In this document: one piece after another, positions 11,065 through 29,284 of the stretch | How positions within the stretch are numbered: position 1 is the first letter of the stretch | How the letters are laid out: each line of letters starts with the position of its first letter | Source of the DNA: Reichenbachiella agariperforans | GTDB lineage: Bacteria; Bacteroidota; Bacteroidia; Cytophagales; Cyclobacteriaceae | Length of the DNA stretch: 64,000 nucleotides | Assembly: GCF_900142205.1 (NCBI RefSeq) | Contig: NZ_FRAA01000004.1 | Location: 310,001 to 374,000 of the forward strand | Direction of reading: 5' to 3' | Notes under the pieces: model-generated | Databases searched by the model: none | What the model was told of the DNA's origin: nothing | What the model saw: the letters and a program-made list of their open reading frames with translations, nothing else | Made by a program: the position numbers and the translations under genes

Positions 11065-11078
11065 ATTGGTAGACCAAT
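11065..11078. promoter_or_regulatory. GntR (UxuR-like) operator upstream of susC
   Basis: ATTGGTAGACCAAT, a 6-2-6 palindrome matching the repeated motif ATTGGTNNACCAAT. It is centred about 56 nt upstream of the susC ATG on the minus strand. Confidence 0.75.
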
Positions 11079-11451
11079 CGATTGAGAAGCCAATATAGAG
11101 AATATCTTAACAACTCCATAACATTTATCAAAAAATCAATCCCATGGATTCAAATTATCAAATGTCATTTTCTCGCATCTAGCGGAGCTACTATTCACTT
11201 CGCCATAAACTCGGTCAATAAAATCATCTGCTAAAACCTTAGGCTACATTAGTAAAAGAAAGCTTTACTGTTATTTAAATGTATATACATACAAATAAAA
11301 CGTGCTGAATTTAGCCAATGACACTCCAGAAAAATGATTTAGCACTAGCAAGACATGAACTTCACCCTACTCTTCTTGCCTACTACATTCGTCATGCTAC
11401 ACTTGCACTACACTCAAAGCAATACACCATTCCTTGTCTCAAACATTATTT

Positions 11452-11465
11452 TTTGGTTAACCAAT
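11452..11465. promoter_or_regulatory. GntR (UxuR-like) operator upstream of first PL7 gene
   Basis: TTTGGTTAACCAAT, one mismatch from ATTGGTNNACCAAT, about 105 nt before the PL7 start. The intergenic region 11016-11562 therefore carries one site for each divergent gene; the remainder is AT-rich with no ORF. Confidence 0.7.
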
Positions 11466-11562
11466 TTACATATTTATTATAAAACCAATACTATAAATCC
11501 GATTTTACCACTAGGTTTGTTAGGTTCAATTAGGAACTGAAAGAATTAAAAAAAGACAGATT

Positions 11563-12963
11563 ATGAAACAGTACTTACTATTACTAGCCGCATTCGCGTT
11601 CTTGTTCTTGAATACCCTCACAGGGTGCGATGAAGAAGACAAACAAGAACAGTTCGATGACACCAAACAGATAGATAGTTTTTCTTTTGAGGAATTGGAT
11701 CCTGTGGTGACAGGTGTCATCACTAACACAGACATAGCATTGACCGTACCTTACGATACTGATGTAACAGCCTTGACTCCAACAGTTACTCATTCCGCTT
11801 TGGCGAGTTTGTCTCCTGCTTCAGAAACAACTCAGGACTTTAGACTCCCTGTAGATTATACCGTCACATCTGAAGACGGCTCTACGCAAGTCTATACTGC
11901 TACTGTCACTAAAGAAGAGCCTCCTTTAGATTCCTCAAATGCAATACTCAATTTCTCATTTGAGGGACTAGCCCCTGTAGTAACAGCCTACGTTGGCGAG
12001 GGAGAAATCAAAGCGTGGATACCAGACCTCTCTGCAGCAAGCAACCTAACCCCTACCATTGTCATTTCAGAGAACGCTACAATATCACCCGCTTCTGGTG
12101 TAGCACAAGATTTTTCGTCTCCTATCACATATACCGTGACGGCAGAAGACGGCTCTATACAAACCTATACCACGACCATCACCGAAGAAACCGAAGTAGA
12201 CTTAGCGTCAGGTCCAGCGTTTACATGGATCAACTGGTACCTGTCTGTCCCAATTGATAATGGCGGTAGTGCCACTTCTATCTACTATGAAGACATTGAA
12301 AATAATAACTTGTCTGAGGATGCCGCTCCATTCTTTTACCTAAATGATGATGACAGCTACACGATGTACACCAAATTCACAGGAGCTACTACATCTGGTT
12401 ATAAAGAAATCAACGGCTCGGGATACTGCAGAACCGAACTCCGTGAATATTGGAGAGGAAATCAATCCACATCAGACAACTGGATCATGGATAGAAAAAG
12501 TGTGCATGGTTTAGCCTCTACGCTGAGCGTAGACTTCTGCAACGGCGATGGACAAACCTATGTCGCTCAAATACATGGTAGAAGTAGAACGGGTGCACCA
12601 GGAGATCCTGCTACTGTCAAGGTTCTTTGGAAAGAAGGTGAATTGATCACAGAGCACTATGTAAAACCCACCAAAGAAGGAGATCTCTGGACGAGTAAAT
12701 ACATTAGAAAAACCTCAATTGGCCAAGTAGACAATGAAAAGTTCACCATTACACTACTCGTAAAAAGAGGCGTTCTCTACTATGCGTTGCACTGTGAAGC
12801 AAAAGGGATAGACGTGGAGTATACAGAACTGTATGACTATGCAACAAATGGCTACATTCACGACAACTATTTCAAAACTGGAAACTACTTTAAATGGAAT
12901 GACGACAAGGTCGAAGATTCACAAGTCATTCTATATTCGGCTAGAACTGCTCACACTGAATAA
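11563..12963 (+). CDS. PL7 alginate lyase lipoprotein with two Ig-like (DUF5018-type) domains
   Basis: Predicted cell-surface endo-acting alginate lyase (beta-elimination of mannuronate/guluronate polymer). Signal peptide with lipobox ending TGC (Cys22); two homologous ~85-residue Ig-like modules (about 36-117 and 126-208, each with TVTxEDGSxQxYT); then a PL7 jelly-roll from about 220. PL7 motifs are RTELR (290-294), QIH (336-338) and YFKTGNY (436-442), which hold the catalytic Arg, Gln, His and Tyr. The residue after GNYF is Lys where relatives usually have Gln. In PL7 enzymes a QIH signature is generally linked to activity on G-containing blocks, so guluronate preference is a reasonable guess. 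Same N-terminal architecture as the paralogue at 18578. A GntR operator precedes it. Confidence 0.9.
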   Translation: MKQYLLLLAAFAFLFLNTLTGCDEEDKQEQFDDTKQIDSFSFEELDPVVTGVITNTDIALTVPYDTDVTALTPTVTHSALASLSPASETTQDFRLPVDYTVTSEDGSTQVYTATVTKEEPPLDSSNAILNFSFEGLAPVVTAYVGEGEIKAWIPDLSAASNLTPTIVISENATISPASGVAQDFSSPITYTVTAEDGSIQTYTTTITEETEVDLASGPAFTWINWYLSVPIDNGGSATSIYYEDIENNNLSEDAAPFFYLNDDDSYTMYTKFTGATTSGYKEINGSGYCRTELREYWRGNQSTSDNWIMDRKSVHGLASTLSVDFCNGDGQTYVAQIHGRSRTGAPGDPATVKVLWKEGELITEHYVKPTKEGDLWTSKYIRKTSIGQVDNEKFTITLLVKRGVLYYALHCEAKGIDVEYTELYDYATNGYIHDNYFKTGNYFKWNDDKVEDSQVILYSARTAHTE

Positions 12964-12989
12964 ATAACCAATCTAGTGGCCTAGTCAGG

Positions 12990-13034
12990 CTAAAAGCCTT
13001 AAACCTCAACCCAATTTAGGTTTAAGGCTTTTAG
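12990..13034 (+). terminator. Long hairpin after first PL7 gene
   Basis: A perfect 17-bp stem (12990-13006 with 13018-13034) and an 11-nt loop, starting 27 nt after the PL7 stop. The stem contains AAAAGCCTTAAA/TTTAAGGCTTTT, so the right arm ends T-rich. It is a likely terminator in the plus direction, without a long separate U-tract. Confidence 0.7.
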
Positions 13035-13134
13035 ACTAATCAATACCTTCTTCGCGGCTCATACATTCTACAAAACAATGAAAAAGCAATAAGGGAATGC
13101 AGCCTCTTACCACACATGATACCCATATAAGTAA

Positions 13135-13172
13135 AAAGACCTTGCCAGTAGGCAAGCTACGACAAGGTCTTT
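13135..13172 (-). terminator. Terminator of the PL6 operon
   Basis: Stem AAAGACCTTG (13135-13144) pairs with CAAGGTCTTT (13163-13172), and the loop contains a further small hairpin. On the minus strand the stem runs into TTTTT. It lies 22 nt after the stop of the PL6 gene. Confidence 0.8.
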
Positions 13173-13194: not shown

Positions 13195-15516
13195 CTAATA
13201 AACAAGCGTCAACTTTAAGTTTTCTTGCACTACAATCTTACCTGAGTTGGATATTTGATTGTTAGCGTGCGTATTGTTCTTCGCACCCCACAGTAGAGCG
13301 ACCAGTTTGACTGAGTTATTTTTAAAGGTATTGTCTTCTAAGTTTACATTGACAATCCCACGTGTGTTGAGTAAGATTCCGTTGCTCTCTTTTCCTCCGC
13401 ATTGTGTGAATGTACTGTTGATGACCGAGAGATTACCACCTATCGTGGACTCGTCATACCCTCCACGGTAGTAGTCTATTACGTTGGCTTTTACATTATC
13501 AAATACGCACCCCTCTACGGTCAAGAATTCCACGTTGTAGTCTCCCTTGTCATTTGTTTCTTGGGATAATTCAATCCCATTTTGACAATCTCTGAGTGTA
13601 GAATTAGCAAAACTAATCTCCTCTGCAAAAGTCTCCTTATATGCCTTTAGCACGTAATCGAACCCTTTGATCTCACATCCTTTGACTCTAAGATTGTAAT
13701 GACTAGACATGTTTTGTTCGAGGCTAGCAAATGCCTGCTGGGTACCTGTACCCGATAGTATAACTTGAGAGAGTATCAGCTCACCTTTAGGGTTCATCTG
13801 AAACGCTGGTGTACCAGCAGCTCCGGAGTATATGATCTCAGCGAGTTGATTCTCATCTTTCGACTGGATCGTAATCGCCTTATTGATTACCAGAGATTCG
13901 GTCAGCGTATAAGTACCAGGCATCAATACGATAACATCTCCCGCTTCTGCAGAGGCAAGTTTATCTACTAGATCTGTCCCCTCTGGATGCACATCGATCA
14001 TACTTGGTTCTTTGGTTTCCTTTTCATTCGAGAACCAACCTGCACCGTACTGACCCTTATCCAAAATCATAGGGTCCGCAGCAGGCGCTTTAATCATAGC
14101 ACCAATACTAGTATCGTTAGTTCTGGAATTACCAAAAATATCAGTTTTGAATTGATCAAACTCAAAGCCTTGATATGCCTCTACTGCTGATGCGGTAGTA
14201 GGCTTGTACAACAACTCACCCACCTTGTCTAGTGTCATTTCTGTAGATGTTAACCCTTGCCTTTCATCAAACCGAACACCTTGATTTTGAATAAAGTTAC
14301 TAGCAAAAGTCACTCCATCAGCCTTGTCGTGTTCTACAACTGGAGCAGTGTCTCCTTGTTCGTTGTAGATCAGATTATTGGCAACTACTGTACGGATCGG
14401 CCTTGCTGACCTGATTTCGGATAGTGGTAGTACTTCTTTTTGGCTGATGTTTGTCCCTACCCCAAACTGCCATGGAGATGGACAGTTTACGTAAGTATTG
14501 TACGCGACGATGACATCCGTCACTTGATTGTAGCGATTGAGTGGCGACTTTGGTATCCCATTCATCACAGCCAATGGGCTTCTAAAACTTTTTCCTTTCA
14601 AGTTGTAGAAATAGTTATTGGTCACAACATGCCCTGTATTGATCAGTCTAATTCCTCCAATATTTTCAGAGTTTTCATCTCCGATAAAATAATTGCCATC
14701 AATCGTGCAGTAGTTACCGTGACGCGTCACGAGCGATCCCTCACTCTTATAGAAAACATTGTTTCTAAACTCGTTGAAATTCGTCTTGCTAGAGATAATC
14801 TCCACTTCTCCGTTACACTCTTCGAATAGATTATTGGCTACTGTAGTATTGCTAGGAGACATGGAGCTAAAACTATCTCCTAGTTGGATCGTCTCCCCTT
14901 TAGGTCCTCCCTTTCTTGGACGAGGACCAAAATGATTGTTAACGATCTGATGAAAGTTCTTAATGTTTCTCCTGCCTTTAATCTCTACTCTGACAGTCGG
15001 CCCTTCGTTGGATTTTCCCGCGAGATAGCAGTGATCCATTTGGTTGTTTCTACCCCAAAATTCTACCCAGTGATCCTTTCTATCTCGGCTCATCTGGTTG
15101 AACCCCTCGATCACGGTATTGGTGATGCGACAGTGATTTGCCACTTGCTCTTTATCAAATTTAAAATCGATCACTGCATTTGATGGCGTATACCCATTTC
15201 GGAAGTAAAGACCACTCACTGTTAAATACTCCCCCCCGAATTTCAAATCCGACTCTCCTTCTATAAACACCTGGCCTGGCGTCTCTGCCTGCAGGGTTAT
15301 CGGAGCATCCTCGGTTCCTTTTCCTCCAAATTTGATTTGGACATCCTTCCAAACCCCATTTGCCATGGTGATCACATCGCCCGCCTTAGCACTATCCAGT
15401 GCGACCTGTAACGATGCAGCGTCCGTAACGACCCGTTGCTGATTACTCGTAACTTTCTCCTGACAGGCTGCTGCCAAAAATAGTAATGCTGCTAGCCAAA
15501 TAGTATTCCTTTTCAT
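13195..15516 (-). CDS. PL6 alginate lyase lipoprotein (two beta-helix domains)
   Basis: Polysaccharide lyase family 6 (chondroitinase-B-like) alginate lyase, 773 residues. Signal peptide MKRNTIWLAALLFLAAAC with lipobox Cys18. The N-terminal parallel beta-helix carries the family motifs ECNGEVEIISSKTN (Lys244, predicted base) and EGSLVTRHGNY (Arg265, predicted acid). A second beta-helix domain starts near residue 490 (VDKLASAEAGDVIVLMPGTYTL), the layout known from the dimeric exolyase AlyGC. An upstream in-frame ATG (15576) would place 20 polar residues before the signal peptide, so 15516 is preferred. It follows the other PL6 gene by 94 nt on the same strand and probably shares its promoter. 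The lipoprotein anchor suggests action at the outer membrane or in the periplasm on oligomers. Confidence 0.9.
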   Translation of the reverse strand: MKRNTIWLAALLFLAAACQEKVTSNQQRVVTDAASLQVALDSAKAGDVITMANGVWKDVQIKFGGKGTEDAPITLQAETPGQVFIEGESDLKFGGEYLTVSGLYFRNGYTPSNAVIDFKFDKEQVANHCRITNTVIEGFNQMSRDRKDHWVEFWGRNNQMDHCYLAGKSNEGPTVRVEIKGRRNIKNFHQIVNNHFGPRPRKGGPKGETIQLGDSFSSMSPSNTTVANNLFEECNGEVEIISSKTNFNEFRNNVFYKSEGSLVTRHGNYCTIDGNYFIGDENSENIGGIRLINTGHVVTNNYFYNLKGKSFRSPLAVMNGIPKSPLNRYNQVTDVIVAYNTYVNCPSPWQFGVGTNISQKEVLPLSEIRSARPIRTVVANNLIYNEQGDTAPVVEHDKADGVTFASNFIQNQGVRFDERQGLTSTEMTLDKVGELLYKPTTASAVEAYQGFEFDQFKTDIFGNSRTNDTSIGAMIKAPAADPMILDKGQYGAGWFSNEKETKEPSMIDVHPEGTDLVDKLASAEAGDVIVLMPGTYTLTESLVINKAITIQSKDENQLAEIIYSGAAGTPAFQMNPKGELILSQVILSGTGTQQAFASLEQNMSSHYNLRVKGCEIKGFDYVLKAYKETFAEEISFANSTLRDCQNGIELSQETNDKGDYNVEFLTVEGCVFDNVKANVIDYYRGGYDESTIGGNLSVINSTFTQCGGKESNGILLNTRGIVNVNLEDNTFKNNSVKLVALLWGAKNNTHANNQISNSGKIVVQENLKLTLVY

Positions 15517-15610
15517 TGCTCTTTTATTTGTAGTAAATTCTTTATCTCCCTGATTGATTAAAAACATGTATTGCACGGACTATTCTCTGATAAGACAACT
15601 CGATTAAAAG

Positions 15611-18106
15611 TTACTGCTTTATCACTGTGAAAGAAAGTGGTTTTGCATGAAGACCACTGATCTTTAACATGACCATCCCACTCCAAGAAACGCCACTGAC
15701 ATCAATGACATTCCCTTGCAACTCACCGTGCTCCAGAACACGTCCGGTCATATCTAACAGTGTATAGGCTTGGTAATGGACCATTAGTCCTTTAAGGTGA
15801 ATGGTGCTTTGAACGGGGTTCGGATAAAGTACTATATCCGATCTGTTTTGAGCCTTAGTACTGAGCGTGGCCTGACTACCATTGGCTTCTCCCCATACTT
15901 CTATCTCGCTGATACTGTTCCAATCCGATGATGAATTACCAAACCCTGTAAGCTTGATATATTTGGCTATCGTATCCTCGAAATCTATCGTTTCAAAATC
16001 CTCAGTAAAACCAGCGCTTTCTGTTTTAGCGACCAAGTTCACAAACGTCGTATTGTCTTCAGACAGGTCTACTTTGTATGTAGTCGTACGTTCATCACCA
16101 TTGAGAAATGCTATTTTGACATAACTCACCTCGTGGACTCCATCCAGTTCTAAAGTCAAATGCTGTTCACCCTCTGCCGACCATCGCGTGTCCATATCTC
16201 CATCTATGGCATTTTCTTTACCATTCCCATCTTGTTCAGCACTTGCCATGACAGCTACTATATTGAGTTTTTCTCCCCCTAAGTTTAATACAGCAGCAGC
16301 CTGCACCACGGTAATGTCTCGTGAGAACCCACTTCCAGACACCTGTATAGTCGCAGTACGCGGCATATAGTCCGTATTAGCAGTGACCGAAACGGAGACA
16401 CTACCGGACCCTGTACCGCTAGTAACATCTAAACTTACCCATGTCGCATCAGTAGATACCGTCCATTCTAGGTTAGTATTGATATCTAATGAAGATACAG
16501 TCGCATTTGTTCCCGTACTGATTTCATTAGTAGAGACAAGGAGGTAGTCCACTTCGGATTCTCCGTCATAATCTGGGTGAAAAGAATGCGGCCCGACATC
16601 TTCGCTTGTCAGCGGTGCATATCGTACAGATTCGAGACTATAATGATCTGCACCTACGGTACTCGTCTCTGGGCGACTATGTCCCTCAATATCCTCTGCC
16701 AACTCATCCAATATTGTAGAGGCTCTCAATGCTACAGGAGTCTGGTCCGTAGACCTCCATGTACCCGTCTCATCGTCGTAGGAGAGGAAAGGGTTCTCTA
16801 CCGAAACCTCCGTCGACTCAAATGTTCTTTCATCGCTAGTCAACATAGCAGTACCAGTAGGTTGCATAATATTGTTGACCCACACCATATTGTCTGGCTC
16901 ATTGTGATAGTAAATAAGATCATTGGTCGAGCCTGTAACTATATTATAAGCCATGGTCACATCACGTGGTGGCTTACTGTATTTCCCATTGTTATCAAAT
17001 CCTATTTCAATTCCATAATCATTGTTGACCAAGGTATTGTAGGCGATAAGCGCACGCTCAATGCGAAAATGTTTGCTCAGCGAACCATTGCCCGATTCGG
17101 CATCTCCTTCTGTCAAGGTAATGGGCGCATCCCATTTTTGACCTTTGAGTCCCTCAAAATAATTATTCACAATAACATGATCTTCTCCATAAACTCGAAT
17201 CCCTCCGGTGCAATAGATCCCCTCAGCTGTAACAGAGCATGCAGCGCCTCCTCCCAAAAAATAGTTACCTTCTACGCGATTCCTATTGCCATGTCTGAGA
17301 GACAAAGTTCCTTCACTTTTGAGAAAAGTATTGTGACGGACGATATTATCGCAGGACTTGAGTGACACGATCTCTGGATCACCATTACACTCTTCAAAGA
17401 GGTTGAACTCTACTGTCGTAAAGCCGCTAGATTCAGACATTTCACTCCATCCTACCCGGATCGATTCTTTTTCATTGGTTGCACGAGGAGTATTGTTGCG
17501 AAAATGATTGTGATCGATGACATCAAACTGCGATTGAACCGTTTCTCCTGACCCGTCTATAGTGATATAGTGGCCAACTTCTACTTTGTTCTCGAATAGA
17601 TTGTGATCGATACGGTTGTGATGACTAAACGAAGAAGTGGGTTGATCCCAAACCCCTCCTATGTATACCCATTTGGTAGAGGACTCTTCCGTCAGCCTAA
17701 AGATATTTCGAGTAATACGAATATTATTAGATCCTTCTAGTTTAATAGCGGTACCGCTGTTGGTAAAGGTGATTCCTTGAATCGTCAAGTAGGCGCAAGT
17801 TCGGAGCACAAACTTGGTATCTCCTGTGAATACAACGCCTCCGGTACTTTCGGCACGTACAGTAATATCTGCAATATCCGTTCCCTGTACATTGATGGTC
17901 ATACCATTGCCATCGTATGTACCATCTGCAATCTGAATTGTATCTCCGGGAGAAGCTGCGTTGATAATATCTTTGAGCTCATCGATATCACTGACGGTCG
18001 TTACGTTTTGACCAAAGGTGCTCGTACAATATATCACGAACCCTATTGTAGCACAGAGTTTCTTAACAGAGTTCAACTCTGTTTTCCATAGTTTGTTTTT
18101 GTTCAT
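15611..18106 (-). CDS. Secreted PL6 alginate lyase with BACON, CBM32-like and T9SS sorting domains
   Basis: Modular extracellular alginate lyase of 831 residues. A signal peptide ends near TFGQ (residue 33). The PL6 beta-helix follows (about 35-490) with ECNGDPEIVSLKS (Lys250) and EGTLSLRHGN (Arg271) as the catalytic pair. Next are a BACON-type domain (about 510-595), an F5/8-type C (CBM32-like) domain (about 600-730; DGDMDTRWSAEGEQ, YIKLTGFGNSSSDWNSISE) and a C-terminal T9SS type A sorting domain (YPNPVQSTIHLKG to the end). It is therefore exported by type IX secretion and released or anchored at the surface, unlike its lipoprotein neighbour. The CBM32-like domain is clearly homologous to that in the PL7 gene at 29352. 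A GntR operator lies about 56 nt upstream of the start. Confidence 0.92.
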   Translation of the reverse strand: MNKNKLWKTELNSVKKLCATIGFVIYCTSTFGQNVTTVSDIDELKDIINAASPGDTIQIADGTYDGNGMTINVQGTDIADITVRAESTGGVVFTGDTKFVLRTCAYLTIQGITFTNSGTAIKLEGSNNIRITRNIFRLTEESSTKWVYIGGVWDQPTSSFSHHNRIDHNLFENKVEVGHYITIDGSGETVQSQFDVIDHNHFRNNTPRATNEKESIRVGWSEMSESSGFTTVEFNLFEECNGDPEIVSLKSCDNIVRHNTFLKSEGTLSLRHGNRNRVEGNYFLGGGAACSVTAEGIYCTGGIRVYGEDHVIVNNYFEGLKGQKWDAPITLTEGDAESGNGSLSKHFRIERALIAYNTLVNNDYGIEIGFDNNGKYSKPPRDVTMAYNIVTGSTNDLIYYHNEPDNMVWVNNIMQPTGTAMLTSDERTFESTEVSVENPFLSYDDETGTWRSTDQTPVALRASTILDELAEDIEGHSRPETSTVGADHYSLESVRYAPLTSEDVGPHSFHPDYDGESEVDYLLVSTNEISTGTNATVSSLDINTNLEWTVSTDATWVSLDVTSGTGSGSVSVSVTANTDYMPRTATIQVSGSGFSRDITVVQAAAVLNLGGEKLNIVAVMASAEQDGNGKENAIDGDMDTRWSAEGEQHLTLELDGVHEVSYVKIAFLNGDERTTTYKVDLSEDNTTFVNLVAKTESAGFTEDFETIDFEDTIAKYIKLTGFGNSSSDWNSISEIEVWGEANGSQATLSTKAQNRSDIVLYPNPVQSTIHLKGLMVHYQAYTLLDMTGRVLEHGELQGNVIDVSGVSWSGMVMLKISGLHAKPLSFTVIKQ

Positions 18107-18155: not shown

Positions 18156-18169
18156 ATTGGTCAACCAAT
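18156..18169. promoter_or_regulatory. GntR (UxuR-like) operator upstream of PL6 operon
   Basis: ATTGGTCAACCAAT, exact match to ATTGGTNNACCAAT, centred about 56 nt from the PL6 ATG: the same distance as at susC. Confidence 0.75.
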
Positions 18170-18460: not shown

Positions 18461-18490
18461 AAAACACAATTGGTAAACCAATTGTGTTTT
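18461..18490. promoter_or_regulatory. Extended 30-nt palindromic operator upstream of second PL7 gene
   Basis: The core ATTGGTAAACCAAT (18469-18482) is extended on both sides into a perfect 14-2-14 inverted repeat, with arms starting AAAACACAATTGGT. It is centred about 102 nt before the PL7 start. A second, imperfect inverted repeat (GATCCA...TGGATC, about 18499-18516) follows. Confidence 0.75.
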
Positions 18491-18577
18491 ACTTAGTGAT
18501 CCAATTGATTATGGATCAATTATTACTTAGGTTTGTTTTACTCATTCGAGAAGAAGACTAAAGAAAAAAGAACGATT

Positions 18578-20026: not shown

Positions 20027-20238
20027 TAGAGACAATTAATTGAGTTAACCAAAATAGAATTTATTGATGTAATAAGACTTACGTCAAGGTTCCATGTGTC
20101 CAAAATCATTTTTGGTTATTCAATTTTTGATATACCAAAACAATGACAGGTTGATAAAAACACTATTTAAAGACATTAAAGAAGATATTTTGAACCAATA
20201 ATGATAATTATTTTGGATTAACCACAAGAACAGACTAT

Positions 20239-20252
20239 ATTGGTATACCAAT
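20239..20252. promoter_or_regulatory. GntR (UxuR-like) operator upstream of PKD lipoprotein
   Basis: ATTGGTATACCAAT, a perfect palindrome and identical to the core of the enterobacterial UxuR/ExuR operator as I recall it. It is centred about 70 nt from the start codon. Region 20027-20238 has further half-sites (ACCAA, TTGG) but no ORF. Confidence 0.78.
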
Positions 20253-20319
20253 TTTTGGAACACCATTCAAGATTGGAAAAGCAAGACTATTTTATAAACT
20301 ATTAAAATTAAGAATGATT

Positions 20320-21240
20320 ATGAAACAAACATTTCTAACTAAAAACAAGGTGGCAGCCTTTTTCACTAGAGGATTTCTAGCATCACTATTTGCTATGAGT
20401 GTACTAGTATTTGCAACATCATGTGGCGAAGAAAGTGGCAGTGATGAGCCAGCATTACCTCCAGCAGCAGCATTCAGTGCTGAAGTAGATGTATTTGAAG
20501 TTACCTTCATCAACGCTTCCACAGGAGCAGCTAGCTACGCATGGAATTTCGGTGATGATTCTGAAGGTTCTACTGATCAGAATGTAATCCATACCTACGC
20601 GTCTCCTGGATCTTATAACGTTACTTTAACCGTGACAGGTGAGGACGGTACAACTAGCGAAGCGACCAACACTGTAGAAATCGTGATCCCAGAGGCGTCA
20701 TTCAGAAATGGGACCTTTGATGAAGCAGGTTACGAATCAGATGTACTGAAAGACATCTACCAAACAAACAATGATGAGTGGGAACTACCTGCAGAACATG
20801 CTTGGGATGACGATGCATTCAGATGTGGTGGTATGACTAGTGATGGAGAGAAGCTAGAGGACGGTACCAAAACAAACGGTATCAAATTCAACGATCCATT
20901 GAGAGGTGCTTATCAGAAAATCACTGTAGTACCAGGCGCAACATACGAAGTAAGCTTCCGTGCCTCTACTGAGTCAGTAGATGTACCTGCAATTGACAAA
21001 GTAACGGCTTGGTTATTGAAAGGCGACATCCATTCAGAGACTGAGATCACAGCAGATAACACATACACTTCTGTAACAGTAGTGAGTTATGCTGATGCAG
21101 CTAAGGCTAACTTCCAGACTTACACTATGCAGTTCACTGCGGAGACCGAAGAGCTACTGTTCTTCATGAAGAGTGTAGACCCTAATGCTAATGGTGACGC
21201 AGAAACTTGGATTGATAATGTTACAATTACTATTCAGTAA
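20320..21240 (+). CDS. PKD-domain surface lipoprotein, probable alginate-binding protein
   Basis: Lipoprotein of about 306 residues. A long signal peptide ends in the lipobox ATSC; then a linker, a PKD domain (about 47-125; AAFSAEVDVFEVTFINAST, YAWNFGDDS) and a C-terminal beta-sandwich (about 130-306; NGTFDEAGYESD...ATYEVSFRAST...TWIDNVTITIQ) like CBM4/9-type carbohydrate-binding modules. No lyase motifs are present. It has the position and regulation of a surface glycan-binding protein (SusE/F-like role) of the alginate system, inferred from the operator upstream and lyases around it. ATG 20314 is an alternative start two codons earlier. Confidence 0.78.
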   Translation: MKQTFLTKNKVAAFFTRGFLASLFAMSVLVFATSCGEESGSDEPALPPAAAFSAEVDVFEVTFINASTGAASYAWNFGDDSEGSTDQNVIHTYASPGSYNVTLTVTGEDGTTSEATNTVEIVIPEASFRNGTFDEAGYESDVLKDIYQTNNDEWELPAEHAWDDDAFRCGGMTSDGEKLEDGTKTNGIKFNDPLRGAYQKITVVPGATYEVSFRASTESVDVPAIDKVTAWLLKGDIHSETEITADNTYTSVTVVSYADAAKANFQTYTMQFTAETEELLFFMKSVDPNANGDAETWIDNVTITIQ

Positions 21241-21812: not shown

Positions 21813-22832
21813 TTATCTCTTTACACCCTGATTATCTCCATCTACAATAGCCATAATTTCTTGGCTCGTGGCGAGATTCAGGTCTCCCGGTATGGTATGT
21901 TTCATCGCAGAACAAGCGATGGCATAGTCGATGGTTTTGTATAGATCATGTTCGAATTGGATCAACCCATAGATGATCCCAGAGGTCAGTGCATCACCAC
22001 TGCCCACTCTATCCAAAATATCTGGAATATCAATCACTCTACCTTCGTAGACGTTGTGCTCGTCAAATATAGCCGCAGAGATCTTGTTGTGGCTCGCACT
22101 GATGGTTCTACGCCACGTCACCACCACATTTTTGAGATTGGTAAAACGACTCGTCAACACCTCACCGAGATGCGCAGTACTAGACCGCAAGTCATACGGA
22201 CATTCTTCGATTCCAAATAGTTCCTTGATATGTTCCTCATTGCCAAGCAAGATATCGCACTCCTCGATCAATTCAGGCAGTACTTCGTTGGGTTTTCTAC
22301 CCCAGTTCCACAGTTTCTTTCGGATATTGAGATCTACAGAGATCGTCATCCCTAGTGCTCGCGCTTCTTTGATCGCTTCCAAGAGCAAATTGTACGCCTG
22401 CTCACTAACAGCAGGTGTCACCCCAGACCAGTGCAACCAATCATACCCTTTGAGTATCTCTTTCCAATCAAAATCCCCAGGTTTGGCTTCCGCAAATGCA
22501 GACTGCTCACGATCGTAGATCACGTTGCTAGAGCGCAGCATGGTACCCGTCTCATGAAAGTAGAGTCCTAGGCGTCTACCCTGCATAAGTACATCCGATA
22601 CATCCACACCGGATTTTTGCATGTGTCCACGCGCCGCTCTTCCGAGATCATTGTCTGGCAAAACAGTGACGAACTTTGAAGGCATCCCCATCTTGGTCAA
22701 GTTGACTGCCACGTTGGCCTCTGTCCCACCATAGGACGCTTTGAAGGCATTGGCCTGTTCGAACCGTGCCTGATTCGGTACATCCAAACGCATCAACAAT
22801 TCTCCAAACGTGATTACTCTTTTCTTTGACAT
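21813..22832 (-). CDS. kdgK: 2-keto-3-deoxygluconate kinase (PfkB family)
   Basis: Cytoplasmic PfkB-family sugar kinase, 339 residues, predicted to phosphorylate 2-keto-3-deoxygluconate (KDG) to KDPG. N-terminal motif ITFGELLMRLDVP and the substrate-binding GGTEANVAVNLTKMG; C-terminal active-site motif DRVGSGDALTSG, a GSGD variant of the usual GAGD, with the catalytic Asp kept. The assignment to KDG rather than another sugar rests on its place as last gene of the PL17-KdgF-MFS-SDR-kinase series. A hairpin with a U-tract separates it from the SDR gene, so it may be transcribed partly on its own or at lower level. Confidence 0.88.
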   Translation of the reverse strand: MSKKRVITFGELLMRLDVPNQARFEQANAFKASYGGTEANVAVNLTKMGMPSKFVTVLPDNDLGRAARGHMQKSGVDVSDVLMQGRRLGLYFHETGTMLRSSNVIYDREQSAFAEAKPGDFDWKEILKGYDWLHWSGVTPAVSEQAYNLLLEAIKEARALGMTISVDLNIRKKLWNWGRKPNEVLPELIEECDILLGNEEHIKELFGIEECPYDLRSSTAHLGEVLTSRFTNLKNVVVTWRRTISASHNKISAAIFDEHNVYEGRVIDIPDILDRVGSGDALTSGIIYGLIQFEHDLYKTIDYAIACSAMKHTIPGDLNLATSQEIMAIVDGDNQGVKR

Positions 22833-22920
22833 CTGACTTTAGTTTTAATTCGAGTCCAAAATTAAGACTGAGAAAAACAAAATTCTCTTCCTTGAACACC
22901 CAATACTATTCAAAAAAAAC

Positions 22921-22947
22921 GTCCTACCTACCAGCGGCAGGTAGGAC
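22921..22947 (-). terminator. Hairpin with U-tract between SDR gene and kdgK
   Basis: Stem GTCCTACCT / AGGTAGGAC (9 bp, 9-nt loop) followed on the minus strand by GTTTTTTTTG. It lies 80 nt after the SDR stop and 89 nt before kdgK, so it could attenuate read-through. Confidence 0.7.
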
Positions 22948-23026
22948 ACGCTTCCTAAATATTTCGATTCTTTAAGAAAACGATCTTTGTTGAATCAAGC
23001 CGACTCGCCCGATTCGATTACATTCC

Positions 23027-23788
23027 TTAAATTCCTAAAGCTTGACCTCCACCGATTTGGATCGTCTCAGCCGTGATGAAAGAAGCATCGTCACTGCCTA
23101 AGAAAGCTACAACAGAAGCAACCTCTTCTGGCTCACCAATTCGTCCCAACAAAATGTTGTTTTTCCATGAAGCGAACACTTCAGGCTTAGTCGCTTTGAT
23201 TTGAGCATGGAATGGTGTGTCAATCGTACCAGGAGATACTGCGTTCACTCTAATTCCATATTCTGCCAAATCTTTTGCAAGTGCTCTCGTAATTGCGTGT
23301 ACTCCTGCTTTAGACGTACCATAGACACCTGCTCCAGGTCCACCTGCGTTCCATCCAGCGTTTGATGTATAGTTGATAATCGACGCATTTTTTCCTTTTT
23401 TGAGGAAAGGAATGGCCGCTCTTGATGCAAAAAACACCGAATCCAAATTCAAAGCCATAACAGATCTGTAAAACTCAGTAGTCATTTCCTCAAATCTAGA
23501 TCTTCCACCTAGACCACCTGCATTGTTAACCAATAGGTCAATTTTACCGTACTTTTCACCAATTTTGGTGATGTTTTCAGTGACAGCTTCATCACTAGTC
23601 ACATCAAACCCAACGTACTCCGCAGTGATTCCTTCTGCCTCAAGCTCTTTTACTCTTTCCGCTCCTTTTTCTTCTTCAATACCATTCAAAACAACAGTAT
23701 ATCCCTCTTTTCCTAATCTTTTTGCTACTGCAAAACCGATTCCACCTGTAGCTCCTGTCACTACGGCTACTTTACCTTCTGACTTCAT
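23027..23788 (-). CDS. SDR-family oxidoreductase, probable DEH reductase
   Basis: Classical short-chain dehydrogenase/reductase, 253 residues, NAD(P)H-dependent and cytoplasmic. Cofactor motif VVTGATGGIGFAVA; NNAG in LLVNNAGG; catalytic Ser (NYTSNAG) and Y-x-x-x-K (YGTSK). In alginate loci this family reduces 4-deoxy-L-erythro-5-hexoseulose uronate (DEH) to KDG, and that role fits its place between the transporter and kdgK. The sequence alone shows only the SDR fold, so the substrate is inferred. It begins 26 nt after the stop of the MFS gene, consistent with one transcript. Confidence 0.85.
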   Translation of the reverse strand: MKSEGKVAVVTGATGGIGFAVAKRLGKEGYTVVLNGIEEEKGAERVKELEAEGITAEYVGFDVTSDEAVTENITKIGEKYGKIDLLVNNAGGLGGRSRFEEMTTEFYRSVMALNLDSVFFASRAAIPFLKKGKNASIINYTSNAGWNAGGPGAGVYGTSKAGVHAITRALAKDLAEYGIRVNAVSPGTIDTPFHAQIKATKPEVFASWKNNILLGRIGEPEEVASVVAFLGSDDASFITAETIQIGGGQALGI

Positions 23789-23814
23789 AATTGTATTAAT
23801 TTTAATATCTAGTT

Positions 23815-25080
23815 CTATTTTATTTCTATTCTTTTGATCTCCTTACAAAGGACAAATATTGCGATCACACTCAAGGGCACGAATGCACCGATGATCACGA
23901 AAGCAGGCGTATAAGACGTCTCTGTAATAAACGGGATGAGAAAATTCATTCCAATCACACAAAACAGACCGACTGTTCCTCCAAAACCAGCCAATGCCCC
24001 CACAGATTTTCCACTGAGCAAATCACTCGGTATAGTCTGGACATTGCTAATCGAAAACTGGAAGCCGAAAAGGACCACTGCAACAATCCCTACAAATTTT
24101 TCTGGCGTATTGGCAATAAAAATAGTAGCCAACAACCCCAAGAACATCAACACAGCACCAATCGAAATCGTCGTTTTACGTGCTTTGTCTACTCCTTTGC
24201 CTTGTGCAATCAACTTGCCCGCAAACCACCCTCCAGACATACTACCTATGGCAGCTCCTACATAGGGTACCCAAGCAAACATTCCGATTTCTTTGACATC
24301 AAAACCATAGGTATCAGCCAAATAAATAGGCATCCATCCCGCAAACAACCACCACAGTGGCTCCAAGAAAAAACGAGATGCCGGTACAGACCACGCTTCT
24401 TTATGCGACAAGATTTCTCTCAATGACAATGCCTTCTCATCCTCGTCTCTAGTCTCTACTGGTTGATCAGACAAAATATGCTCCTGCTCCTCTGAAGTAA
24501 TCCAAGGGTGTTTTTTAGGTGATGCCTTGTTGATGATCAACCATGGAATAACCCACAAAAACACCAAACTACCTACAATCACAAAAGTGACTCTCCATCC
24601 AAATCCGAGGTAGAGCATCGCAATCAATGGCGGTGCTATCACAGACCCCATAGAGGCTCCAGCATTAAAGATCCCCTGTGCCATAGCCCTCTCCTTCGCA
24701 GGAAACCACTCTGCATTACTCTTAACCGCCCCAGGCCAGTTACCTGCCTCTGACACACCGAGCATCACTCGAAACACCCCAAACGACAACAACCCTGAAG
24801 CCAAAGCATGCATCGCCGTGGAAATCCCCCACGCCATGATACTGACCACATAACCCATTCGTGTACCGATTTTGTCAAACATCCGTCCCGAAACAGATTG
24901 ACCGATCGCATAGGCTACCATGAATACGTTTAGCATGATAGAATAATGATGCTTGGTAAACCCTAGTTCCTCAGATATCCCAGGCCACATCACACTAATG
25001 GCCGTTCTGTCTATATAATTGATCACAGTGGCCAAAAAAATCAATATGATGATCCACCACCTTAGTCCTTTCACTTTCAT
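23815..25080 (-). CDS. MFS transporter, hexuronate (ExuT/ACS-like) type
   Basis: Inner-membrane major facilitator with 12 predicted helices, 421 residues. MKVKGLRWWIIILIFLATVINYIDR and the FDKIGTRMGY loop (the G-x-x-x-D/R-x-G signature) are typical of the anion:cation symporter group that includes hexuronate and glucarate carriers. It is predicted to carry unsaturated monouronate or DEH from periplasm to cytoplasm, the step between the periplasmic PL17 exolyase and the cytoplasmic SDR. It lies 73 nt after the cupin gene and 26 nt before the SDR gene, all on the same strand. Confidence 0.88.
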   Translation of the reverse strand: MKVKGLRWWIIILIFLATVINYIDRTAISVMWPGISEELGFTKHHYSIMLNVFMVAYAIGQSVSGRMFDKIGTRMGYVVSIMAWGISTAMHALASGLLSFGVFRVMLGVSEAGNWPGAVKSNAEWFPAKERAMAQGIFNAGASMGSVIAPPLIAMLYLGFGWRVTFVIVGSLVFLWVIPWLIINKASPKKHPWITSEEQEHILSDQPVETRDEDEKALSLREILSHKEAWSVPASRFFLEPLWWLFAGWMPIYLADTYGFDVKEIGMFAWVPYVGAAIGSMSGGWFAGKLIAQGKGVDKARKTTISIGAVLMFLGLLATIFIANTPEKFVGIVAVVLFGFQFSISNVQTIPSDLLSGKSVGALAGFGGTVGLFCVIGMNFLIPFITETSYTPAFVIIGAFVPLSVIAIFVLCKEIKRIEIK

Positions 25081-25153
25081 AATCTCTGCTTTTCAAAGCT
25101 CCTTGGTATCATCCATATCTGTAAGAAACATGTCAGAACCGAAGAGCTACTTT

Positions 25154-25525
25154 CTATTTTTTTCCAAAATATGATACTTCCCCACCCTCAAGAAAATCCT
25201 CTCTCACTGGGCTGAAAACATCAATAAGAATACCTGCTTCGAGACAGATGGCTCCATGCAATAAATTAGGCTCGATGTAAACACCATCTCCTCCTTTGAC
25301 AATCTGCTTTTCACCATCTATGGTAAATTCAAACTTGCCCGAAGCACAGTAGGTTGATTGAGTATGAAAATGAGCATGTGGTGTACCTTCAGCCCCCTTT
25401 TCGAACTTCACTTGTACCATCATGATCTGATTGTCAAATCCCAAGAACTTGCGAGAGACTCCTCCACCTAGTTCTTCCCACTCCATCTTATCAGTTAAAA
25501 TAAATTTCTCACTAAATCGCTTCAT
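25154..25525 (-). CDS. kdgF: KdgF-like cupin (uronate linearisation)
   Basis: Single-domain cupin of 123 residues. KdgF proteins turn 4,5-unsaturated monouronates into the linear keto form DEH. Metal-ligand candidates are His50, His52 and Gln56 in HAHFHTQ and His90 in PNLLHGA, matching the KdgF pattern of two His, one Gln and one later His. There is no signal peptide, so it is cytoplasmic. It follows PL17 by 43 nt and precedes the MFS gene, an arrangement seen in other alginate and pectin loci. Other small cupins look similar, but the context is strong. Confidence 0.87.
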   Translation of the reverse strand: MKRFSEKFILTDKMEWEELGGGVSRKFLGFDNQIMMVQVKFEKGAEGTPHAHFHTQSTYCASGKFEFTIDGEKQIVKGGDGVYIEPNLLHGAICLEAGILIDVFSPVREDFLEGGEVSYFGKK

Positions 25526-25568
25526 AATATCCTTTTGTTTTCCTGTTAATGATCCTTAAACACTACGC

Positions 25569-27854
25569 TTACATGACCTGATAGTCATACGCTCCGGTCC
25601 AAGACACTTTTTTAGATTCTATTGTTATTTCATGTGACTGATCAGCAGCACTATCGTTGCGACAAAGCACCAGTTGCAGTGTACCACCCTCATGTCTGAT
25701 CTGTACTGCTGTATAATCATCAGATTGATAGATCACATCTATACCCGTTACTTTCGAAAATGCATCCTCAGACAGCTCGCTCACCGCAGAGTAGCTACCA
25801 TGTGACTCCAATACCGAAGCAAATACAGCATGATCGGCCTTTCTCCTCAGCATAAACATCGGATCTGCCCTCAAATTGAACTTGGGATCATTAGCGCCTA
25901 TACGGCCAAAAAGAAACTCATCCGAAGTGTCCGTCGAGGCAGTCCATGAATAGAACTGCTGGTTGTTCATCCAAGTCACCTTCGTCTGATTGGGCAACTT
26001 ATCAGCTTTGGCCACTTCCCAGAGGTGCTGATAGCCAAATTGATCCCCCATAGGTGCTAGTGTAGCACGTGTCTCATAGACCATGTTAGCCAATAGCAAC
26101 TGACCAAAATAATAGCAGGGCAGATCATAAGTATTGATCTCGTCCGAATCGATATCAAACACATCTACGAGTAATGGCTTAGCGAATGACGAATCTGCTA
26201 TCAACGCAATCGTACGTTGCATCCTCACGCCATCATAAGCCCCTGTATCCTTTGCGCTAGCGATTTGAATATTCTTCTTAGAAGCATCAAAGAAGAACCT
26301 ATCCGAGTGTCGTTTGTTCGCCACATCTATGTCAGCACCATAGTTAGTCGTTTGGTTCACGACTACCGTGTTATGCGCTACGGTTTGCTTGGCAAAAGTC
26401 TTGTTTTCTTTGAGGTATCCTCCTCCATTTTTTTGTTCGATGTTGACGAAACGAGAGACACCATAATCTTGTAGTACCTCTTCACCGTTTTCGAAAAGTG
26501 AGTAAGATAATTTGTCGTAGTGTCCATGTCCCATCCCTTGTGCAGTGTATTTAAATACTGCGTTGAGATCTCCTCCAGTATGATTCATGCGCAATATTGC
26601 TAGTCCACCTTCGGATCCATCAGCTCCATCCTTGAGTTCCATAGACTTAGGTACAAATGCCTGTGTTTTACCTTGGCTGATTGCCTCTGCCACACTAAAG
26701 CCCGTCACGTCTAGCAATACACGCCCTTGCTTCTCAGCGATCGAGAGCAGTTCAGGATTTTGATCTCCAAAATGATAGATAATATCCACTGCCGATACCA
26801 ACTCACGAGAATAGTAGGACATTCCCTTCTGCGCGTCATTGATCGGGTAAAACTCCCCATTGCTATCTGTTAGGTTTAGCAGCGCATACACTGCTTTGGA
26901 TAAGATTCCATCTCGATGCTCAAATATTTTCAGATCAGGTCTAGCATTTTGCAAACTCGCAGCAAACACCATAAACGGATAAATAGCATAGCGCTGGTAA
27001 TAAGGTCCCTCCGCATAAAAACCATCAGGAGAAAACAACAAATCCATCTGCGCCAAAAAACCAGCCCGCTCTTGCCCTTCTTCTTTGATCGAGCCACCAT
27101 CATTGTCTTTTGCGGCGGTATCCAGCCCATCCTCCTCTAGACCATAGAGCGCACGCTTGACCAATACAGTGTCATTCATCACCAACCCAATCATCCCTAC
27201 ACCTGCGTTGGCCCATGTACTGTGGTTATGTATTCTATTAAAGAATTGTGGTGTTTCTATAGATAGGAAATTAGCATAAGGTCTAAAAAGATTGGTCTCT
27301 AAAAACGCCTTTTCGTCTGCATTCAAACGATCATAGATGCAATCATACGCCTGACTAGCATATACGAGCCAGTTGGCATCATTGAGACACTGCCAGAATA
27401 GCTTGCCTCGTGAATAAGATTTTTCGCTAGGGTGTCTGTCCAGTGTGGGAAACATCTCAGCATACTCACGCAACATATCATGCACATAGACAGCATACTT
27501 CTCCTCTCCTGTAACCCTATAGAGCTTTCCAGCTCGTTGCATAGTTAGATAGTTGAGCTTGTGACGCTCATGAGTATACCCTCCTGCTAGATCTTTGGGG
27601 ATAGGCACTTCGATACCATTAGCGATCTGAGCATCTACCTCTTTGATCGCCTGATCCATAGACTGCTGAAACAGCTGGACACTACTATACTGTTCTTGCA
27701 CAGTGGACAAAGATGCCGCTGTAAACAAGATACTTTTGTGTTTCAAAGTTGTTGTTTTATGCTCCGAATCGCATGATACGATCGAGCATAAAAACAACAA
27801 ATTCAAACAACTAATTAAACTAGTACGATATATCACTAATGCTATCTTCACCAT
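25569..27854 (-). CDS. PL17 oligoalginate lyase lipoprotein (heparinase II/III fold)
   Basis: Exo-acting oligoalginate lyase, 761 residues, releasing unsaturated monouronates from oligomers. Signal peptide with lipobox ending IVSC (Cys28), so membrane-anchored and probably periplasmic-facing. The alpha/alpha-toroid N-terminal domain holds NRIHNHSTWANAGVGMIG (Asn210, His211 candidates) and DGFYAEGPYYQRYA (Tyr280 or neighbours, candidate catalytic base). The C-terminal heparinase II/III beta-sandwich includes the metal/active-site-like GHGHYDKLSYSLFENG. It is first gene of the catabolic operon (PL17-kdgF-MFS-SDR). The promoter region 27855-28233 shows no full consensus operator, only an everted ACCAAAT...AATTGGT pair. 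Confidence 0.92.
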   Translation of the reverse strand: MVKIALVIYRTSLISCLNLLFLCSIVSCDSEHKTTTLKHKSILFTAASLSTVQEQYSSVQLFQQSMDQAIKEVDAQIANGIEVPIPKDLAGGYTHERHKLNYLTMQRAGKLYRVTGEEKYAVYVHDMLREYAEMFPTLDRHPSEKSYSRGKLFWQCLNDANWLVYASQAYDCIYDRLNADEKAFLETNLFRPYANFLSIETPQFFNRIHNHSTWANAGVGMIGLVMNDTVLVKRALYGLEEDGLDTAAKDNDGGSIKEEGQERAGFLAQMDLLFSPDGFYAEGPYYQRYAIYPFMVFAASLQNARPDLKIFEHRDGILSKAVYALLNLTDSNGEFYPINDAQKGMSYYSRELVSAVDIIYHFGDQNPELLSIAEKQGRVLLDVTGFSVAEAISQGKTQAFVPKSMELKDGADGSEGGLAILRMNHTGGDLNAVFKYTAQGMGHGHYDKLSYSLFENGEEVLQDYGVSRFVNIEQKNGGGYLKENKTFAKQTVAHNTVVVNQTTNYGADIDVANKRHSDRFFFDASKKNIQIASAKDTGAYDGVRMQRTIALIADSSFAKPLLVDVFDIDSDEINTYDLPCYYFGQLLLANMVYETRATLAPMGDQFGYQHLWEVAKADKLPNQTKVTWMNNQQFYSWTASTDTSDEFLFGRIGANDPKFNLRADPMFMLRRKADHAVFASVLESHGSYSAVSELSEDAFSKVTGIDVIYQSDDYTAVQIRHEGGTLQLVLCRNDSAADQSHEITIESKKVSWTGAYDYQVM

Positions 27855-28233
27855 TCTTCTTTTAATAGTAAGTGTCTTAAAATTCTTAGGTTAGAGTTGC
27901 CATATTTGACAATTGGACACAGCTCACGCTAGGCATATCATCCAAATACTCCTAAAACTGTACAATAGTGGAACATCAAGTACATCAACTCACAGCACCA
28001 CGCTGTACATACAATTAATAAATTTGAGTACTGCTTCTACAATAGAAGCCTGATTAGGCTCTCTTTTCTTGCCAATTAGAGTCAAAAATGATTCTGAAAG
28101 AGAGCATTTGGGAGGGGAAAAAGACATAGCTAAAATTTTAGATATCTTGCCTATCTTTGTAAATAGTGGTTAATCGAACACAATGACAATACCGACGACC
28201 AAATTGATATTTTAATTGGTAAGATTTTCCCCT
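27855..28233. promoter_or_regulatory. Upstream region of the PL17 operon
   Basis: About 380 nt without an ORF. The only regulatory-looking element is a pair of everted operator halves at 28198-28220 (ACCAA ... TTGGT separated by an AT-rich core), which resembles the locus operator turned outward. No convincing promoter boxes. Confidence 0.35.
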
Positions 28234-28262
28234 GAATGGATTAGCCCTTGGTTAATCCATTC
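28234..28262. terminator. Hairpin downstream of the gntR gene
   Basis: Perfect 10-bp stem GAATGGATTA / TAATCCATTC with a 9-nt loop, 32 nt past the gntR stop. The T-rich flank is on the plus-strand side, so its role as a gntR terminator is uncertain. Confidence 0.45.
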
Positions 28263-28293
28263 TTCTTTTAATTCGTTTTTACGCCATATTCCT

Positions 28294-29037
28294 TTATCTC
28301 TTTTTTCCGTTACTACGATTAAAATCCTCCACTTGAAGCGTATTTGAGAAATCCAAAATGTCACTTAAATGGGCACGCATAGCCTGAGTAGCTCCTTCTA
28401 TATTTTTTTCCTTGATGTGAAACAAGATAAGCTCATGCTCTTCTAGGGCAGATACTGATCTCCCGTCACCACAGGCATCTAATTCGTTATAATTGGTAAG
28501 TATATCTGGCGTAATCACCAACATGAGCGATTTCAGCACCGAGTTCTTACTTGCTTCAGCTATTTTCAAGTGAAACATCAAATCTTCGTCCACTGCATAG
28601 ACAGACGCTGCTTTCTTATTTTTATAAGCTAGCAAAGCCGCCTCTATACCCGCCAAATCCTCCTCAGTTCTATTCTGAGCAGCTAGCGCAGCAGCATTGG
28701 TTTCTAATATAACTCTGGTCTCCACGAGAGATCTAAAGTCCTTAACTTCTAACCTGAGTACATCCGTAATCAAGCCTTCTAGAGCAGTCATTCCTAGACC
28801 TGCCACTACAGTCCCGCTTTGTGGTAGCGTTTTTAGGATACCATAGAACTCCAATTTCTTAATAGCATCTCTGACATGAGACCTCCCCACGCCCAATGCC
28901 TCACATAATTTTCTCTCTGGCGGGAGTTTATCTCCAGGCTTCAATTGTCCAGACGTAATCAACTCCTTGATCTGATTGATAATCTTGTCGACCGGCGTTT
29001 CTATGACGATCTGTTTAAAGTTATTCAGTAATTCCAT
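28294..29037 (-). CDS. GntR-family (FadR/UxuR subfamily) regulator of the alginate locus
   Basis: Transcription factor of 247 residues: an N-terminal winged helix-turn-helix (about 14-80; GQLKPGDKLPPERKLCEALGVGRSHVRDAIKKLE) and a C-terminal FCD ligand-binding domain (about 95-235; DEDLMFHLKIAEASKNSVL, EEHELILFHIKEKN, MRAHL supplying likely metal/ligand residues). UxuR and ExuR, which respond to hexuronates, belong to this subfamily and bind ATTGGTATACCAAT-like sites. The same palindrome stands upstream of five gene sets here and 31 nt before this start, which supports autoregulation. The inducer is probably an alginate breakdown product such as DEH or KDG (inferred). Repressor action is likely but not shown. 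Confidence 0.9.
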   Translation of the reverse strand: MELLNNFKQIVIETPVDKIINQIKELITSGQLKPGDKLPPERKLCEALGVGRSHVRDAIKKLEFYGILKTLPQSGTVVAGLGMTALEGLITDVLRLEVKDFRSLVETRVILETNAAALAAQNRTEEDLAGIEAALLAYKNKKAASVYAVDEDLMFHLKIAEASKNSVLKSLMLVITPDILTNYNELDACGDGRSVSALEEHELILFHIKEKNIEGATQAMRAHLSDILDFSNTLQVEDFNRSNGKKR

Positions 29038-29061
29038 TCGATGTTTTCTTGACTCTTATTA

Positions 29062-29075
29062 ATTGGTTGACCAAT
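29062..29075. promoter_or_regulatory. GntR operator upstream of its own gene
   Basis: ATTGGTTGACCAAT (extended to a 16-nt palindrome with A and T), centred 31 nt from the regulator start. That is close enough to overlap its promoter or 5' leader. Confidence 0.78.
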
Positions 29076-29270
29076 TTATGTATTTTTGATCAGGATGCAA
29101 ATTAATCCCTCCATATTTTTATGGATTTGAAAAAAATACATGCTTTTTTATCACAAAATTTTCTGCGTTAAAACACTAAACAAGACATAAATTTTATATA
29201 AAACACTTATTTAAAGACTGTTACAACCATTCCTATATTTTGAAATAATAAATATTCTAACGTAATTGCT

Positions 29271-29284
29271 TTTGGACAACCAAT
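29271..29284. promoter_or_regulatory. Degenerate GntR operator upstream of third PL7 gene
   Basis: TTTGGACAACCAAT matches 10 of the 12 defined positions of ATTGGTNNACCAAT. A second, weaker match (ATAGGTTGACCGAC) overlaps 29302-29315. A separate inverted repeat ATTGAT...ATCAAT lies between them. Confidence 0.5.

Follow-up and report, generated by a model that had tools for sequence, protein, structure and literature searches.

The alginate locus of Reichenbachiella agariperforans lies within a 64,000-nucleotide stretch of contig NZ_FRAA01000004.1 (positions 310,001 to 374,000; hereafter the window), and it is very probably an autoregulated alginate regulon of the AusR type, named after the regulator of Zobellia galactanivorans, run by one FadR-subfamily GntR repressor encoded at 28294–29037 on the minus strand. 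The evidence for this is a palindromic operator, ATTGGTNNACCAAT, whose exact copies are restricted to the locus and which, with few mismatches, accompanies the regulator gene in most relatives and is retained in sister species.

Exact operators are restricted to the alginate locus

Exact copies of ATTGGTNNACCAAT were found at 11065, 18156, 18469, 20239 and 29062, with none in 100 dinucleotide shuffles of the window. A search of the whole genome (5,034,103 bp, 98.83% complete) returned these five only, all between genes of the alginate locus, versus one match for the reversed operator pattern used as control. Allowing one mismatch added eight places genome-wide, namely 11452 and seven outside the locus, and two copies with two mismatches (29271 and 29286) precede the alginate lyase gene PL7-3. 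All listed window sites are intergenic relative to annotated-looking genes. The initial annotation had reported six intergenic palindromes and a degenerate copy before PL7-3, and these were recovered as the five exact sites plus 11452 and as the pair at 29271 and 29286. It had also held that equal frequency of sites elsewhere in the genome would speak against an operator, and the genome-wide motif scan that it asked for gave no such frequency at zero mismatches.

Sites were also scored with a matrix built from the regulator-upstream sites of relatives (76 of 80 named loci chosen, 75 sites usable, 71 distinct), these loci being the best 80 of 524 and coming from Reichenbachiella, Roseivirga, Marinoscillum, Fulvivirga, Algoriphagus, Saprospiraceae and others. 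Since the matrix sites were picked for matching the motif of the initial annotation best, with no more than two mismatches, the resemblance to that motif is built in, and the independent part of the result is where high scores fall. Within the window the six named sites ranked at the top (21–31 bits), followed by 29271, 29286 and 11049, and nine sites reached at least 8 bits versus 0.67 expected (30 dinucleotide shuffles).

The seven one-mismatch places outside the locus (3.5–13.6 bits) were set aside as targets, as six of them lie inside open reading frames (ORFs) of at least 100 codons. The best of the seven (C15:235395, inside an ORF) scored slightly above the degenerate copy at 29271; the seventh (C14:255406, 4.0 bits) is in no ORF of 100 codons and is kept as a possible target.

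The operator accompanies the regulator in relatives

The 250 bp upstream contained a site with at most one mismatch in 37 of 47 regulator copies (that of R. agariperforans included), versus 0.09 expected from shuffles of the same stretches, and likewise in 73 of the 80 named copies, where the upstream site was exact in 38, had one mismatch in 35, two in three and more than two in four. These two sets overlap (e.g., L024/L085), and several genomes supply more than one copy. Summed exact sites came to 101 (control 25) in 34 other genomes with an ortholog and to 25 (control 20) in 34 genomes without one, the latter being the first-listed such genomes and not a random sample. Across the named loci (1.33 Mb), 168 sites scored at least 14 bits versus 0–9 for 20 column-permuted matrices. 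Genomes sampled from the family yielded homologues of the regulator at E ≤1e-40 in 23 of 148 cases, and those from the class in 13 of 345, R. agariperforans being part of both counts, and three same-class homologues, all of one family, were 49–50% identical to it; no homologue was found in the viral contigs searched.

In 51 of 79 loci the regulator is followed by SusC and SusD, in that order, counting only genes recognised by 14 query families, and in a few loci by PL17 or PL6; it thus commonly stands at the head of a co-directional cluster. In several relatives the regulator is present in two to four copies (L031, L040–L045, L052, L058–L063), which may divide the regulon. The most distant copies, L061 and L063 (40–41% identity), are without a conserved arginine in the recognition helix and have no upstream site; an exact site lies 0.2–0.3 kb past the 3' end of each.

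Two same-genus genomes (G068 and G124) keep sites before susC, PL7-1, the PKD gene, the regulator and PL7-3, and G068 also before PL7-2, within changed flanks. The PKD-operator position reads TACTTTGG and TAATTTGG in these sister species, and both carry stronger operator copies at the place equivalent to PL7-3. Exact sites outside the locus stand at three places in front of genes or operons of PL6 type (Chondroitinase_B): the one outside site of G068 stands before a PL6-type gene, and in G124 one site precedes an operon made up of a TIM-barrel and a PL6-type gene, and another precedes a further PL6-type gene while also lying inside an opposing ORF that overlaps it. The block CTATATTGGTTGACCAAT, as at the window PL6 operator, precedes PL6-type operons outside the locus in both genomes. 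The inference of a GntR-controlled, autoregulated alginate regulon, already made in the initial annotation, is well supported by comparison, through genome restriction, upstream linkage and sister-species conservation.

G124 has one more exact site, flanked by genes for a propeller-chemoreceptor and an ABC transporter (L168, about 3773; G124:C1:71772). Perhaps it reflects alginate-linked chemotaxis and perhaps chance, since the control pattern also gives one match in G124.

Genes and promoter geometry of the locus

The locus comprises SusC (7998–11015, minus strand; TIGR04056, 868 bits) followed by SusD (6344–7975; Pfam SusD), the alginate lyase PL7-1 (11563–12963, plus; Alginate_lyase2), a PL6 operon of two PL6-type genes (13195–18106, minus; 13195–15516 with an inferred start, and 15611–18106; Pfam Chondroitinase B), PL7-2 (18578–20026, plus; Pfam, ATG read from the sequence) and a gene for a PKD-domain protein (20314–21240, plus; Pfam). 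These are followed by PL17, cupin, MFS transporter, SDR and KDG-type kinase genes (21813–27854, minus; Pfam and NCBIfam; KDG, 2-keto-3-deoxygluconate), which sit downstream of the regulator on the same strand, and, past the regulator, by PL7-3 (29354–31085, plus; Pfam, start inferred, ORF from 29307). PL17 is our label for a gene matched by the NCBIfam oligoalginate-lyase model. The locus contains every PL7 match of the genome that passes the cut-off, three in number, and a fourth, weak match elsewhere falls under it. The PL6-type model gave two full matches in the locus and one short match elsewhere, barely over the cut-off (G000:C17:136538–136687, 24.6 bits).

The −33 element of Bacteroidota promoters is TTTG. 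Their −7 box is described as TAnnTTTG (PMC9723704); all such boxes named here for the window are predictions from sequence. The operator ATTGGTTGACCAAT before the regulator (29062–29075; 30.6 bits; kept in two same-genus genomes) overlaps the likely −7 box of its putative promoter, TTTG-N19-TAAATTGG (29071–29101, minus strand; −33 at 29101–29098, −7 at 29078–29071). At the PL6 operon, ATTGGTCAACCAAT (18156–18169; 28.0 bits) overlaps the likely −7 box TATATTGG at 18172–18165, and before the PKD gene ATTGGTATACCAAT (20239–20252; 21.6 bits) overlaps TATATTGG at 20236–20243 with TTTG at 20212–20215, a promoter of the form TTTG-N20-TATATTGG; PL6 and susC bear TATATTGG without a full TTTG. Three copies precede susC, the strongest being ATTGGTAGACCAAT (11065–11078; 22.3 bits), with a degenerate copy, ATTGGACAATCAAT, 16 bp from it (11049–11062; 9.7 bits) and a third, also degenerate, ATTGAGAAGCCAAT (11081–11094), read from the sequence, that overlaps TATATTGG on the coding strand (11097–11090). 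This third copy gave no match at two or fewer mismatches and ranked outside the matrix top 25, and the block CTATATTGGC-N-TCTCAAT found there is kept in two same-genus genomes. The equal site-to-start distance at susC and PL6 given in the initial annotation was reproduced (in each case 56.5 bp separate the operator centre from the first base of the ATG), whereas the likely −7 boxes are placed differently, that of susC being overlapped by the 11081 copy, which had been missed.

The operators of PL7-1 and PL7-2 stand further upstream. For PL7-1, TTTGGTTAACCAAT (11452–11465; one mismatch, 23.4 bits; in both same-genus genomes) has its centre 53.5 bp from the likely −7 box TAGGTTTG (11512–11519, plus strand), and for PL7-2, ATTGGTAAACCAAT (18469–18482; 21.3 bits; within a longer inverted repeat) has its centre 52.5 bp from the same box at 18528–18535 (plus). 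All five PL7-1/PL7-2 upstream regions that were aligned, which come from three species, retain the box, and its distance from the operator hardly varies. PL7-3 is preceded by the tandem degenerate operators 29271 and 29286, 15 bp apart (29271–29299; 12.3 and 9.8 bits). A weak tandem pair, 20111 and 20126, 15 bp apart (20111–20139; 8.0 and 2.0 bits), lies 128 bp upstream of the PKD operator; such a pair, 15–16 bp apart and 127–130 bp upstream, occurs in the window and in both sister species, and is a possible looping partner of the PKD operator.

Promoter geometry in relatives was counted on 72 of the 80 named loci (those with a site no more than 150 bp away, sufficient flank and no N), taking the first-in-array site of each. 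Among TTTGG-type sites, 18 of 26 have TA exactly four bases upstream, yielding TAnnTTTG, and among ATTGG-type sites, 20 of 46 have TA three bases upstream, yielding TAnnTTGG. TTTG starts 26–28 bases upstream in 31 of the 72, and the left arm shows the A-to-T change 26 times versus five times for the mirror change in the right arm. Neighbouring sites in arrays are spaced at 15 bp (69 counts) or 16 bp (42 counts), against an expectation of ~0.05 for each displacement and side; where both members of a pair are strong, the pair enters these counts twice.

The regulator and its predicted pocket

The regulator matches Pfam GntR (winged helix; 66 bits) and FCD (78.7 bits), both over the gathering score, which places it in the FadR subfamily, and the TTGGT-NN-ACCAA sites have the TKGT/ACMA palindrome with a 2–3-nt spacer given for that subfamily in a survey (PMC4494728). 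It is the one FCD-domain match in the genome, so its description in the initial annotation as the only FadR-type regulator of the window extends to the whole genome. Residues D152, H156, H201 and H223 are invariant in 21 regulator homologues, and their spacing equals within one residue that of the metal sites described for DgoR, where D146, H150 and H195 bind metal and galactonate, and for Ps5454 (N144, H148, H192, H214) (PMC7674646). A sugar acid from alginate would be a reasonable candidate effector; KDG, 4-deoxy-L-erythro-5-hexoseulose uronate (DEH) and an unsaturated oligomer are indistinguishable here.

Proposed mechanism and alternative readings

From the sites and their zero-mismatch restriction to the locus, the cross-genome regulator linkage, array spacing, −7-like overlap and pocket residues, all computed, we infer binding, repression rather than activation, an effector and read-through. 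In the proposed mechanism, dimers of the 28294–29037 product would, when alginate is absent, occupy single or arrayed ATTGGTNNACCAAT operators in the promoters of susCD, the PL6 operon, the three PL7 genes, the PKD protein gene and the regulator gene itself. The left half-site lies on the likely −7 box in the promoters of the regulator, PL6 and PKD genes, and in that of susC by way of its degenerate copy, so that bound protein would block RNA polymerase; at PL7-1 and PL7-2 the operator stands further upstream of the likely −7 box. An alginate-derived sugar acid, held by a metal in the FCD pocket, would probably release the repressor; only the −7-like box overlap and the pocket residues point to repression with release by alginate intermediates. 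The PL17-to-KDG-kinase genes would probably be reached by read-through from the regulator promoter, the simplest account given that the regulator commonly heads a co-directional cluster. The non-coding stretch 28140–28270, in the gap between the regulator and PL17, is strongly conserved in three same-genus genomes, and an Rfam search of 5000–33000 gave nothing at the gathering score and so no family for it.

A number of observations weigh against this autoregulated regulon. The read-through to PL17 would have to cross 440 bp, and neither mismatch nor matrix scans gave an operator before PL17 in three same-genus species. In G068, no site was seen ahead of the gene of the locus that matches PL6b. 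Relatives have their own site within 300 bp upstream of only 7 of 78 SusC, 5 of 35 PL6a-like and 0 of 33 PL17 genes, which means that control of most targets there must pass through operons. No upstream site at two or fewer mismatches was found for 8 of 47 and 4 of 80 regulator copies. Two-mismatch copies number 275 genome-wide versus 177 for the control, leaving room for weak operators elsewhere. The −7-like overlap is not universal, being seen at 38 of the 72 regulator promoters and at 12 of 27 further sites (23 of 28 non-regulator sites plus four from sister species, after dropping three that fall inside ORFs and two lacking a gene call); of the 15 without it, seven are later copies in an array. 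In the window, the PL7-1, PL7-2 and PL7-3 operators do not overlap a −7 box, and no TAnnTTTG-type box overlaps the 29271 and 29286 sites. The promoters in which the left half-site does lie on the −7 box, about half of those studied, fit the expectation for a repressor that blocks the polymerase. Exact sites were absent from 3 of 34 ortholog-bearing genomes and present, as one or two copies, in 22 of 34 ortholog-free ones. The last count, with a sum near control (25 versus 20), would suit a palindrome arising by chance or as a structural repeat, a reading of negligible probability against the restriction to the locus, the conservation, the regulator linkage, the spacing rules and the presence before PL6-type genes elsewhere.

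The displaced PL7 sites could result from a dual mode, in which the protein represses where its operator covers the −7 box and activates, or co-binds upstream, at PL7-1 and PL7-2. The conserved TAGGTTTG box at near-constant operator distance suits this, as does PL7-1 in the window having no good −33 element (best one of four letters); however, a conserved CCAAT near the PL7 −33 position could let a second dimer block the promoter, and AusR is reported as a repressor in papers citing Dudek et al. 2020, so we regard the dual mode as unlikely. An operator–promoter fusion in this clade, with the TTTGGT arm serving as the TTTG of the −7 box, combined with displaced sites working in a second mode (activation or looping), is likewise a doubtful though conceivable extension. 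Were it true, a single palindrome over its −7 box would suffice to bring a gene into the regulon, and secreted proteins would owe a different dose response to the displaced sites, namely those of PL7-1 and PL7-2 and the conserved pair ~128 bp upstream of the PKD operator.

The initial annotation had further proposed that a uronate-sensing UxuR/ExuR code has been kept across phyla, and it is this part of its interpretation, and not the autoregulated GntR alginate regulon, that lacks support. UxuR is the best of eight Escherichia coli K-12 proteins compared directly, by a small margin (UxuR 65 bits, PdhR 62, GlcC 61, LldR 57, ExuR 50) that leaves PdhR and GlcC roughly as near, and the E. coli uxu region contains ATTGGTCAACCATT, with one one-mismatch and two two-mismatch sites in all. 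In a spacer survey (PMC4494728), whose FadR-subfamily set includes no Bacteroidetes regulator, UxuR sites have a 2-nt spacer, as do those of PrpR, MdcY and GntR, versus 3 nt for ExuR, PdhR and LldR; the 2-nt spacer thus fits UxuR and equally regulators of other compounds. On the other side, NCBIfam scores rank NanR (101 bits), LldR (99), GlcC (84) and PdhR (82) above UxuR (71.8) and ExuR (61.5), all far under cut-offs, and the UxuR and ExuR equivalog models need 442 and 396 bits. In a small, provisional tree (21 rows, long branches), UxuR and ExuR pair with each other (98/96) apart from the 13 Bacteroidota rows (98/100), the regulator's clade. E. coli pdhR has the same half-sites (ATTGGTAAGACCAAT, 3-nt spacer), and the exu region has no site at two or fewer mismatches. 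The half-site is a FadR-subfamily feature shared by members with other ligands and hence not uronate-specific, and we consider it quite improbable that the regulator is a true UxuR/ExuR relative keeping a uronate-specific operator across phyla.

Significance and comparison with known systems

To our knowledge, few polysaccharide utilisation loci (PULs) have a mapped local regulator with operators. With one FadR-type protein and five perfect operators in one locus, the regulon should be cleanly testable. The promoter rule (operator often on the −7 box, 15–16-bp arrays) would predict alginate genes elsewhere in a genome, as illustrated by the PL6-type genes outside the locus in sister species, and an AusR-like control scheme would be extended to Cytophagales and Saprospiraceae relatives. 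A search of an open-licence library showed no paper that deals with this operator in Cytophagales; the excerpts of a paper on polysaccharide degradation in Reichenbachiella describe PULs and genes for alginate lyases without mentioning a regulator for these (PMC10752948), and those of PMC12323373 and PMC3878776 contain no such operator.

Among E. coli regulators, UxuR and ExuR resemble the present one in being GntR-FCD proteins, with ATTGGT-like arms at UxuR sites, but are only 28% and 24% identical to it, fall in a separate clade and have hexuronate genes, not SusCD genes, as targets; the UxuR of Bacteroides is a LacI-family protein (PMC3878776). PdhR also has ATTGGT half-sites before its own gene and is 28% identical, but it is a pyruvate regulator with a 3-nt spacer (PMC4494728). 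DgoR shares the D-x3-H ... H metal pocket for a sugar acid with equal spacing (PMC7674646), but has a 3-nt spacer (PMC4494728), controls galactonate genes and is 23% identical.

The closest parallel is AusR, and control of SusCD-type alginate genes by a GntR repressor is thus already known from Zobellia. AusR is described as a GntR-family regulator encoded in the alginate PUL that represses alginate genes (PMC7874173, PMC8286568, PMC8073546), binding single, double or triple operators, with a proposed release by alginate intermediates (PMC7874173). These features, on which the comparison is made, come from papers citing Dudek et al. 2020. The present regulator comes from a different branch of Bacteroidota, with Reichenbachiella faecimaris as nearest named homologue and no Zobellia record among the best 80 of 524 relatives' loci. 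The alyA7 lyase gene of Zobellia is reported to escape AusR, whereas here a site, if only a degenerate one, precedes the PL6 operon and every PL7 gene. As in the AusR system, a GntR-type regulator is encoded within the alginate PUL and the alginate genes carry operators in single, double or triple copies, and judged by its sequence the locus would work in the same way.

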